Assembly: GCA_016203225.1 (NCBI GenBank)
Contig: JACQNC010000015.1
Coordinates: forward strand, 1 to 37,308
From: Candidatus Woesearchaeota archaeon
GTDB lineage: Archaea > Nanobdellota > Nanobdellia > Woesearchaeales > ARS49
Direction of reading: 5' to 3'
DNA length: 37,308 nucleotides
Below are positions 6,387 through 32,529 of this stretch, one piece after another. Under the pieces are notes generated by a model. The model did no database searches. It was not told where the DNA came from and saw nothing but the letters and a program-made list of their open reading frames with translations. A program made the translations under genes and the position numbers. Numbering within the stretch: the first letter of the stretch is position 1; every line of letters starts with the position of its first letter.

Positions 6387-6520
6387 ATGCAGGGAGCAGA
6401 TAGTTGTTCTGGGATGCAGGGAGCAGGCAGACGTTCTAGGAATCTAGGCTTCGCGACTATACCGCAGGGGCTCTATCGCCGCCCCCTTCTCGAACCCCGC
6501 GACAGAATGCAGGGAGCAGG
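6387..6520 (-). repeat. Array of truncated tRNA-Leu 3' ends
   Basis: ATGCAGGGAGCAG, which is the reverse of the tRNA-Leu acceptor 3' strand and the start of the T stem plus one flanking base, occurs at 6387-6399, 6414-6427 (one base longer) and at the gene itself (6507-6520). The copies are exact, lie downstream of the tRNA in its own orientation, and are 27 and 93 bp apart. The 93 bp spacer carries a GGGGC/GCCCC stem (6467/6480). Confidence 0.85.
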
Positions 6521-14073: not shown

Positions 14074-14091
14074 TTTTTACCGCGGGGTCGA

Positions 14092-14118
14092 AGGGGGCGC
14101 GGCAGTTGAGCGCCCCCT
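14092..14118. terminator. GC-rich hairpin between convergent genes
   Basis: Nine base pairs (AGGGGGCGC / GCGCCCCCT) around a 9-base loop. It follows tRNA-Val (after a T5 run at 14074) and faces the end of the convergent surface-protein gene about 100 bases away. No T run follows it on either strand, so termination is only a guess. Confidence 0.45.
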
Positions 14119-14214
14119 GGAATGATTGCGAAGCCTATATTCTGCGTCTGCCTGGCAGGTCCATCGCAAACGCATGATATCTGTCGCGATCAGGCAGATT
14201 AGAACGCTGACGTT

Positions 14215-26475: not shown

Positions 26476-27405
26476 ATGAGTGGGTGCGAGGAACTGGCGG
26501 ACATTCTAGAGAAAGGGTTTCCTGAGAGCGTTTCACCGATCGTCTACATCGGCTCCAAGCTTGAAAAAGCGATGAGCGAGACAGAGCAGAATGATGCCTG
26601 CGGGGGGATATTCTACCGCTACCTGTCAGACCCTGCGCAAGGGGACGCCGTGCTCCTCGCGAGGAGCTATCGGACATCACCCGACAAAGTGCAACGGGCA
26701 CTTATCGAGAGGCTGGTGGAATACTCCCGGCAGTCGGTACTTCTCAACGCCGATCCGAGGGAGGCCGCGCAGCACATACCTCACCTGGAGCGGGAGATCG
26801 CGCGTTTGGACGCCCAGGCAAGACCGATAAGGGAACGCTACGATGCCCTGGCTGCAGAACATGACGAGGCGCGCGGTTCTGCGTGGAAACAAGGACGGTT
26901 GCGCAAGAAGATCAACGAAGTCCACGTTGAGTTGGCGCCTCTCGAGAAAGAACTCGGTCCATTGACGGCAAGATATCGCGCGTACAAACGGATACTGGAC
27001 TTCCACCAGAGCGGCCAGGCTGCGCAGCTGATGCAAAGACGCGTCAAACGCGCGCAGGAATACCACCGGCTCGTGGAAGAGAACTATTTCGTGCGTGCAT
27101 ATGCCGCATCGGAACAGACCTCGTCGTGCCGACCTGTGGATTCCTCGCAACTCACCGCCATACAGAGCCAGCTTGGCGCACTGAAAGAACAGCTGGACAG
27201 GCTCGAGAAGGCATATCCTACGCAAGGAAGCTCCATCGTGCCTTCCGAGATACTGGATCAGATCTCGGGTCTTCGGGAGGAGATCCGGCGCGTATCGGGC
27301 ACGAGGGACAACACGATCGTCCACGGTGAACCTGCCCGGAAAGAGCCTGAGAAACAGCGGGAGTTCGGCTCAGGCATGATAGACTTCGACAAGGATTTCA
27401 AGTAA
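26476..27405 (+). CDS. Coiled-coil protein next to actin-like gene
   Basis: 309 residues. After an N-terminal helical part (about 1-85), a long coiled coil runs from about 95 to 200 (LEREIARLDAQARPIRERYD ... INEVHVELAPLEKELGPLTAR), with another at 222-290 (LTAIQSQLGALKEQLDRLEKA). The acidic C-terminus ends GMIDFDKDFK. No enzyme motif, signal or membrane segment. Convergent with the actin-like gene (58 bases between stops). A filament-binding or scaffold role is a guess from context. Confidence 0.75.
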   Translation: MSGCEELADILEKGFPESVSPIVYIGSKLEKAMSETEQNDACGGIFYRYLSDPAQGDAVLLARSYRTSPDKVQRALIERLVEYSRQSVLLNADPREAAQHIPHLEREIARLDAQARPIRERYDALAAEHDEARGSAWKQGRLRKKINEVHVELAPLEKELGPLTARYRAYKRILDFHQSGQAAQLMQRRVKRAQEYHRLVEENYFVRAYAASEQTSSCRPVDSSQLTAIQSQLGALKEQLDRLEKAYPTQGSSIVPSEILDQISGLREEIRRVSGTRDNTIVHGEPARKEPEKQREFGSGMIDFDKDFK

Positions 27406-28903: not shown

Positions 28904-29222
28904 AACGCTCCCGACGGCAGGCGCCGAGTCCGAGCCTCGGCGAGCCATCAGGCGTCGATGCTCCCGACGGGATTCAGCGAAGTGCCACAGCACGAGCTGC
29001 GCCAGAGAACCGAAGTTCTCTGAGCGTGTTCAAATCCCGCTCGATTGTGTGCTGCGGGCTAGATACGATTGCATGCTCCCGACGGGATTCAACCGAGCGC
29101 TGTGAGCGCAGCGAACTGGGCGAGCGTTGTGCCACGGAATCCGCAGATTCCGTTGGCATGTTCAAATCCCGTGTCGATCACGTATCCGGAATTCGAACGC
29201 TCTGATGCTCCCGACGGGATTT
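28904..29222 (-). repeat. Array of truncated tRNA-Glu 3' ends with hairpins
   Basis: ATGCTCCCGACGGGATT, the reverse of the tRNA-Glu 3' end plus one flanking base, is exact at 28958 and 29073 and in the gene (29205). A shorter, slightly altered copy (AACGCTCCCGACGG) is at 28904. Units of 115 and 132 bp also carry an inverted piece TGTTCAAATCCCG (29027, 29159) that matches the tRNA T arm in the other orientation. CGGGATT and AATCCCG could thus close each unit. Inner hairpins: CAGAGAAC/GTTCTCTG (loop CGAA) and CGGAATC/GATTCCG (loop CGCA). 28763-28903 holds only the actin promoter. Confidence 0.85.
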
Positions 29223-29280
29223 GAACCCGTGTCAGAGCCTCGAAAGGGCTCCATCCTTGACCGGACTAGACGACAGGAGC
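29206..29280 (-). tRNA. tRNA-Glu (anticodon UUC)
   Basis: A 75-base tRNA. Acceptor GCTCCTG/CGGGAGC, discriminator A, anticodon stem GAGCC/GGCTC around CTTTCGA (anticodon TTC), T arm ACGGG-TTCAAAT-CCCGT. No intron and no encoded CCA. TATA-like TTTTTAAAT (29306-29314) lies about 30 bases upstream. Confidence 0.96.
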
Positions 29281-32320: not shown

Positions 32321-32529
32321 TACGCTCGGCGGATAAAGCCGTTGCGACGGCAGACCCGCACTCGCGCTTATGCGCTCGGCGGGCAGTCGCCGACGTGCGG
32401 TCGGCGGGCCCTCCTTCGCGCATGTGTCGATTGTAACTCGATACATGCGCTCGGCGGTGCTAGTCGAACGTGCGCGCTCTCCTGCACCCCTCGCGCTCGT
32501 TCGCTTACGCTCACGATGCGCTCGGCGGG
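32321..32529 (-). repeat. Array of truncated tRNA-Gly 3' ends with hairpins
   Basis: ATGCGCTCGGCGG, the reverse of the tRNA-Gly 3' end plus one flanking base, occurs at 32370 (14 bases), 32445 (13) and in the gene (32516). Variants are at 32321 (TACGCTCGGCGG) and 32395 (GTGCGGTCGGCGGG). Spacings of about 50, 75 and 71 bp. Hairpins between: CGCCGAC/GTCGGCG (32388-32406) and a 13-bp stem from GCGCATGTGTCGA to TCGATACATGCGC (32418-32450) that runs into the third copy. No gene is seen in 32249-32516. Confidence 0.85.

Follow-up and report, generated by a model that had tools for sequence, protein, structure and literature searches.

Short structured non-coding units follow tRNA genes of Woesearchaeales and carry copies of the tRNA 3' end. 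In our judgement these units are probably small mobile cassettes, inserted directly behind tRNA genes by target duplication. They form a gene-free covarying family present in at least 18 Woesearchaeales families, with both strands of the host tRNA end at its edges. A search of open-licence papers found no description of such cassettes and no fitting family, and they look like a previously undescribed kind of mobile element or of tRNA-linked RNA.

The window, that is, the whole stretch of 37,308 nucleotides that was analysed, is one entire contig of an archaeal genome of 1.0 Mb (Woesearchaeales, DPANN). By FtsY, its relatives are Candidatus Woesearchaeota. All 43 tRNA genes (RF00005) were examined in 942 kb of the reassembled genome.

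Copies of tRNA ends downstream of tRNA genes

The intact tRNA-Glu(TTC) gene (29206..29280; RF00005) is the host gene; the copied segment is its 3' end, arm A. This gene and all features behind it lie on the minus strand. A spacer s1 of 33 nt (29173..29205; 29-41 nt are typical elsewhere) separates the tRNA end from unit 1. The structured core of unit 1 (29082..29172) comprises arm B1 ACGGGATTTGAAC (29160..29172), whose 13 nt are exactly antisense to the T-loop and T-stem 3' strand of tRNA-Glu, hairpins including ACGGAATC-TGCG-GATTCCGT, and the start of arm C1 AATCCCGTCGGGAGCA (29074..29089), an exact copy of tRNA-Glu that starts at T-loop position 58 and ends with the discriminator base. Unit 2 (core at 28967..29040) has arm B2 GCGGGATTTGAAC (29028..29040), the hairpin CAGAGAAC-TTCG-GTTCTCTG and arm C2 (28959..28974), which again copies the tRNA-Glu 3' end exactly. 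Unit 3 contains a payload hairpin (28918..28957) and arm C3 CCGTCGGGAGCG (28906..28917), a partial 12-nt copy with one mismatch.

C1 and C2 belong to exact 17-nt copies of the tRNA-Glu 3' end plus T (minus-strand AATCCCGTCGGGAGCAT), downstream of the tRNA and in its orientation. The start-to-start spacing at this locus is 132, 115 and 53 bp. The segment GTTCAAATCCCG occurs at 29160-29172 and 29028-29040 in the orientation opposite to that of the copies, and thus CGGGATT and AATCCCG stand at the edges of each main unit. An earlier note on this DNA had described the serial copies (two exact and one partial, downstream, in the tRNA orientation, at spacings of 53-132 bp) and the inverted T-arm piece of each main unit, with ends enclosing a hairpin; both descriptions are confirmed. 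The payload of unit 3 has kin behind tRNA-Arg (contig C4) and in an orphan copy with a tRNA-Glu-like tail and no adjoining tRNA gene (L005, G000 C7:160623-160683, minus strand).

The same pattern was found beyond the view of that note, at other tRNAs and in many related genomes. Within the window, units of a class without arm B stand behind tRNA-Gly(GCC) (32517), with four copies of CCGCCGAGCGCA at no more than one mismatch (32330..32516, minus strand), and two copies of CTGCTCCCTGCA stand behind tRNA-Leu(TAG) (6508; copies at 6388..6507, minus strand).

A second conserved hairpin motif, ACCGCGGGGTY-CAAGGGGGC-GGCGGTWGAG-GCCCCTTG, was observed directly 3' of several tRNAs and has no Rfam match. 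Its positions in the window are 14079-14135 (+) behind tRNA-Val and approximately 6440-6500 (-) behind tRNA-Leu. It is also present behind tRNA-Glu(CTC), Lys and Pro elsewhere in the source genome and in the congeneric genomes G003 and G018, and is reversed within a unit in G003 C19.

Recurrence was scanned systematically with the last 12 nt of each tRNA, allowing at most one mismatch, in the 300 nt downstream and upstream of the gene. At the 43 tRNA genes of the source genome, 14 copies of the gene's own end were found downstream, none upstream and none reversed; the ends of other tRNAs, used as a control, give an expected 0.17 copies on average. The copies are not due to chance. They occur at eight of the 43 loci, namely Glu, Gly, Leu, Lys, Gln, Pro and two Ser. 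Since all statistics are drawn from related genomes, the counts are not independent events. Among 218 tRNAs of several genomes, at one mismatch, 37 are followed by a copy of their end and none is preceded by one (cognate rate 17%, non-cognate 0.16%); 74 tRNAs of G004 and G019, a sister pair from one genus, have 28 downstream copies and none upstream; and a set of 78 tRNAs, mostly from G003 and G018, has 19 and none, respectively.

The genomes are mostly metagenome assemblies. An assembly artefact was rejected, as units are also present in the single-contig genomes G035 and G113. Several draft contigs (L026, L044, G012 C1:1) stop exactly at a tRNA 3' end. Repeats at tRNA ends would break contigs there, and the units are probably under-counted in metagenome assemblies.

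Conserved structure and arms matched to the host tRNA

A typical (class I) unit contains, in 5' to 3' order behind the tRNA, a spacer of approximately 30-40 nt, arm B, two or three hairpins and arm C. Arm B is a 12-13 nt antisense of the host tRNA T-loop and T-stem 3' strand. Arm C, 16 nt long and with a sharp left edge, is a copy of the host tRNA that starts at T-loop position 58 (AAT), takes in the 3' strands of T-stem and acceptor and ends with the discriminator. In other unit types C begins in the T-loop (20-24 nt) or within the T-stem (12-14 nt), and several units of the latter type seem, by inspection, to bear an antisense of the acceptor end in place of B. Some units lack B (Gly, Lys, Ser and Gln in the source genome), and some differ in the length of C. 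The units are non-coding, encode no genes and span 50-290 bp, most of the 66 being 50-180 bp and a few longer.

Arms B and C pair to form the closing stem of a three-way junction. This is the de novo fold of seven units that share one payload at seven tRNA loci of G019 and G004, with eight pairs changed on both sides and a covariation of 0.265 vs 0.136 for shuffled alignments (0 of 500 shuffles as high). The first covariance model, R1, was built from these seven units alone, which come from another genus than the source genome. Its significant matches in the 942 kb of the source genome are unit 2 of the window (73.3 bits, E=7e-22), unit 1 (35.4 bits, E=1.8e-8) and the Pro unit, with no others. 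In an alignment of 24 units, which was fitted to the covariance model and is biased toward it, 22 of 27 pairs have double changes, covariation is 0.41 vs 0.12 for shuffled alignments, and 93% of cells pair vs 30-51% in slid controls. Maintenance of the three-way junction by compensatory changes is supported by this covariation.

A second model, R2, scores unit 2, the best fit to the family, at 87.3 bits (E=5e-20) and unit 1 at 54.4 bits. It has matches in 46 of 353 Woesearchaeales genomes from 18 families, and in five genomes of the same class outside Woesearchaeales. For 27 of the 30 best order-wide loci, ARAGORN places a tRNA on the same strand no more than 165 nt upstream, and the unit tail coincides with the end of that tRNA, with at most one mismatch, in 22 of these 27. 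At one further locus of the best 30 (G120), a tRNA end missed by ARAGORN is visible by eye. A scan of the unit region against Rfam 15 gave no family above the gathering score except tRNA. By inspection, the payload has no bulge-helix-bulge motif, and such an intron was rejected; a box C/D guide was likewise rejected as the role of the antisense arm, as no D box was seen at the required spacing.

Neither this conserved covarying structure nor the match of the inverted arm to the cognate tRNA lay within the scope of the earlier note. The pyrimidine of B that faces T-loop position 57 tracks the cognate purine at 44 of 48 loci, a few of which are orthologous or entered twice (A/T 30, G/C 14, discordant 4; Fisher p=2.7e-8). 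The pairing of B with C does not need this base, because the opposite base in the unit is usually G. At the T-stem positions, B matches the cognate tRNA at 3.56 of 5 vs 2.79 of 5 for shuffled tRNAs (0 of 5000 shuffles), and in one payload family of G019 it follows the cognate tRNA in all seven members. In 55 of 78 copies the acceptor part of C does not differ from the tRNA. Substitutions in C broke the pairing with the tRNA 5' strand in 19 cases and preserved it in ten, so that C resembles a copy decaying in the manner of duplicated DNA rather than a maintained partner; selection for pairing of the acceptor copy with that strand was rejected.

The computed energy is -19.5 kcal/mol for B paired with the tRNA T-arm vs -13.6 kcal/mol for B paired with C. 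When the tRNA plus units are folded to minimum energy, the T-arm pairs with B of unit 2 and the tRNA is re-paired. Thermodynamics would thus allow a switch between B:T-arm and B:C.

Probable mobility and competing explanations

Near-identical payloads were found at different tRNAs. The payloads at tRNA-Tyr of G003 and tRNA-Asp of G018 are 97.6% identical over 85 nt, one payload is present at seven or more tRNAs of G019, and a payload of G016 is common to tRNA-Glu, a second tRNA-Glu, tRNA-Leu and one more tRNA. The kinship of unit 3 in the source genome, noted above, is of the same kind. In the orthologous flanks of the congeners G003 and G018 the site is filled in one genome and empty in the other at Gly, Leu and Ser, and the two differ by one whole payload at Tyr. 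The same sequence at different sites, together with empty sites in relatives, is what generally defines a mobile element, and from these distributions we infer that the cassettes are likely to move. The patchy presence, the many isoacceptors and the neutral decay of C also favour mobility. The earlier note had suggested stacked insertions of non-autonomous units of approximately 100 bp, and this is borne out by the shared payloads and the empty and filled sites in sister species, at a size of 50-290 bp; the contrary observations that it named (a uniform number of copies, a lack of empty sites, payloads that are not shared) were looked for, and the suggestion stands.

The filled and empty sites of sister species show direct repeats of 25-40 nt, and recent cases have direct repeats of 28-41 nt that extend beyond the tRNA. 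The lengths of C and of the part beyond the tRNA are 16+17 nt in G004 C48, 16+25 at tRNA-Tyr of G003, 16+12 at tRNA-Glu of G018 and 16+12 in G495. Long direct repeats are clear in about five cases only, and some repeat cases are tandem duplications (G019 C155, G510). Repeats of this form are what target duplication at a fixed T-loop cut would leave.

Insertion would duplicate the target from a fixed T-loop point (57^58) to approximately 12-25 nt past the tRNA, which would leave the whole tRNA upstream and create arm C. Stacks would arise by repeated insertion beside the tRNA. The form that is recognised or moved is probably a fold of single-stranded DNA or RNA in which B corresponds to the T-arm of the tRNA, and the mover may be a putative enzyme acting in trans. 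B may be copied from the target upon insertion, be selected later or itself choose the target. No transposing enzyme tied to the cassettes was found in the searches for tyrosine recombinases (PF00589), Cas1 and reverse transcriptases. Viral carriage was rejected, the sole pattern match in IMG/VR lying inside an ORF and having no model match.

One possibility, unlikely in our estimation, is a guiding role for B. In folded form, whether RNA or single-stranded DNA, the cassette would pair its 13-nt antisense with the T-arm of the tRNA gene and so steer its own insertion behind that gene with a helper or host enzyme, and a changed B would retarget it. This would make the cassette a tiny nucleic-acid-guided mobile element, and if it moves by T-arm pairing, these symbiotic archaea with their reduced genomes would have a retargetable insertion system of very small size.

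The main rival to mobility is a host RNA role. The unit might be a functional module in the tRNA trailer, in which the B:C-closed three-way junction serves as a sensing or protein-binding domain and the alternative B:T-arm fold controls tRNA maturation; spread would be by rare duplication or gene conversion. The strong covariation and the conserved unpaired positions agree with such a role, as do the complementarity of B to a T-loop base that is dispensable for B:C pairing, the energy difference and minimum-energy fold described above, and a probable ortholog pair (G004 C48:277, G019 C76) with two compensated pairs. However, units are present in some congeners and absent in others, the isoacceptors are many and unrelated and form no fixed set, and the acceptor-strand copies, which would have no role in the module, decay neutrally. 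We consider this explanation not very likely. On the other hand, the conserved structure could reflect a function of the RNA in the host, the units spreading through gene conversion among tRNA loci, and mobility and RNA function can both be true. A unit acting as RNA would be a tRNA-linked regulatory module borne by many isoacceptors. Either way, the covariance model and the empty and filled pairs provide a handle on why tRNA 3' ends attract mobile DNA so strongly.

Another possibility is that the units are non-autonomous derivatives on which tRNA-targeting tyrosine recombinases act, possibly with folded single strands as the moved form, similar to integron attC sites; we regard this as improbable. 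A tyrosine recombinase of approximately 430 aa is encoded directly behind a tRNA in the source genome (Tyr), G003 (Pro), G018 (Thr), G016 (Asp) and G013 (Glu), and C begins in the T-loop, a known place of integrase crossover. The tRNA 3' identity block is found at both ends with the gene restored, as arm C and the intact tRNA. However, G004 and G019, two of the genomes richest in units, have no tyrosine recombinase detectable by PF00589 or by a profile of the approximately 430-aa proteins, and a resident recombinase as a necessary cause was rejected; integrases also occur in genomes empty of units. The displaced copy does not retain the full crossover overlap, as C mostly begins sharply with AAT (58-60) and the main class has lost TTCR. 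An attachment site would preserve TTCRAAT in full, and thus the displacement of the old 3' end by an integrase, proposed in the earlier note, is unsupported.

The recombinase of the source genome (437 aa, with a C-terminal zinc ribbon) is encoded in an 8.3-kb integrative element behind tRNA-Tyr (G000 C7:19780-28143), which is ended by the displaced Tyr end GCCCGCGGGGAT. In G018, a reverse transcriptase gene lies next to the tRNA-Thr integrase (L402, C72:18689-19330) and may belong to a diversity-generating or viral element.

A local repeat generator, the alternative offered in the earlier note, would act by template switching or slippage in replication, seeded by the self-complementary T-arm, with no mobile element involved. 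A combination of inverted and direct copies of the same sequence is a typical outcome of template switching, and tandem identical units occur in G510 and G019 C155. However, copies are never upstream, and the conserved payload is common to different tRNAs, genera and families, which local slippage cannot produce; this explanation is largely refuted and very unlikely. Least probable is insertion by a CRISPR- or casposase-like Cas1 or by a reverse transcriptase: despite the direct repeat of approximately 33 nt beside a leader-like gene and the reported use of tRNA 3' ends by casposases (PMC4046053), Cas1 was found in only two of 57 genomes, in none of the unit-rich ones examined, and not in the source genome, G003, G004, G016, G018 or G019, and a reverse transcriptase is absent from the source genome, G003, G004, G016 and G019, so that resident copies of these enzymes are refuted by absence from most carriers.

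Relation to known systems

Elements integrated at tRNA genes and their scars (attL/attR remnants and partial tRNA genes; PMC9897764, PMC3218864) resemble the units in having downstream copies of the tRNA 3' end in the tRNA orientation, sometimes stacked. However, known cases span approximately 9-23 kb (PMC9897764), whereas the units are structured, gene-free, 50-290 bp long and conserved as a family, have an antisense arm fitted to the tRNA, and lack the full overlap.

CRISPR arrays and casposons (PMC4046053, PMC10359463) are similarly inserted beside a leader-like gene with duplication of a repeat, and casposons can use tRNA ends. The insert of a unit, in contrast, is a conserved structured payload and not captured foreign DNA, and Cas1 is missing.

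IS200/IS605 guide sequences and IS110 bridge RNAs are structured and have a segment complementary to the target site, as the units do; however, the units are complementary to the tRNA T-arm and have long direct repeats. Integron cassettes with their attC sites are likewise small, closed by imperfect inverted repeats and stacked by a fixed site. Unlike them, the units take their arms from the host tRNA, have no gene cargo and have no link to an integron integrase (the search covered the general family PF00589). MITEs, REP/BIME and double-hairpin elements are also short, palindromic and non-coding, with many dispersed copies, whereas the units are strictly placed and oriented at tRNA 3' ends, have arms matched to the target and have no known transposase ends.

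Two further observations concern individual genomes. An unusually long unit in G006 (L405, contig C13, behind the tRNA at 26529-26603) has a payload with a short open frame of approximately 38 codons, which may be cargo or chance. The tRNA genes of G016 are very intron-rich, many of them being 90-127 nt long, and some of the introns have CTTTAG-style hairpins like those of the units.
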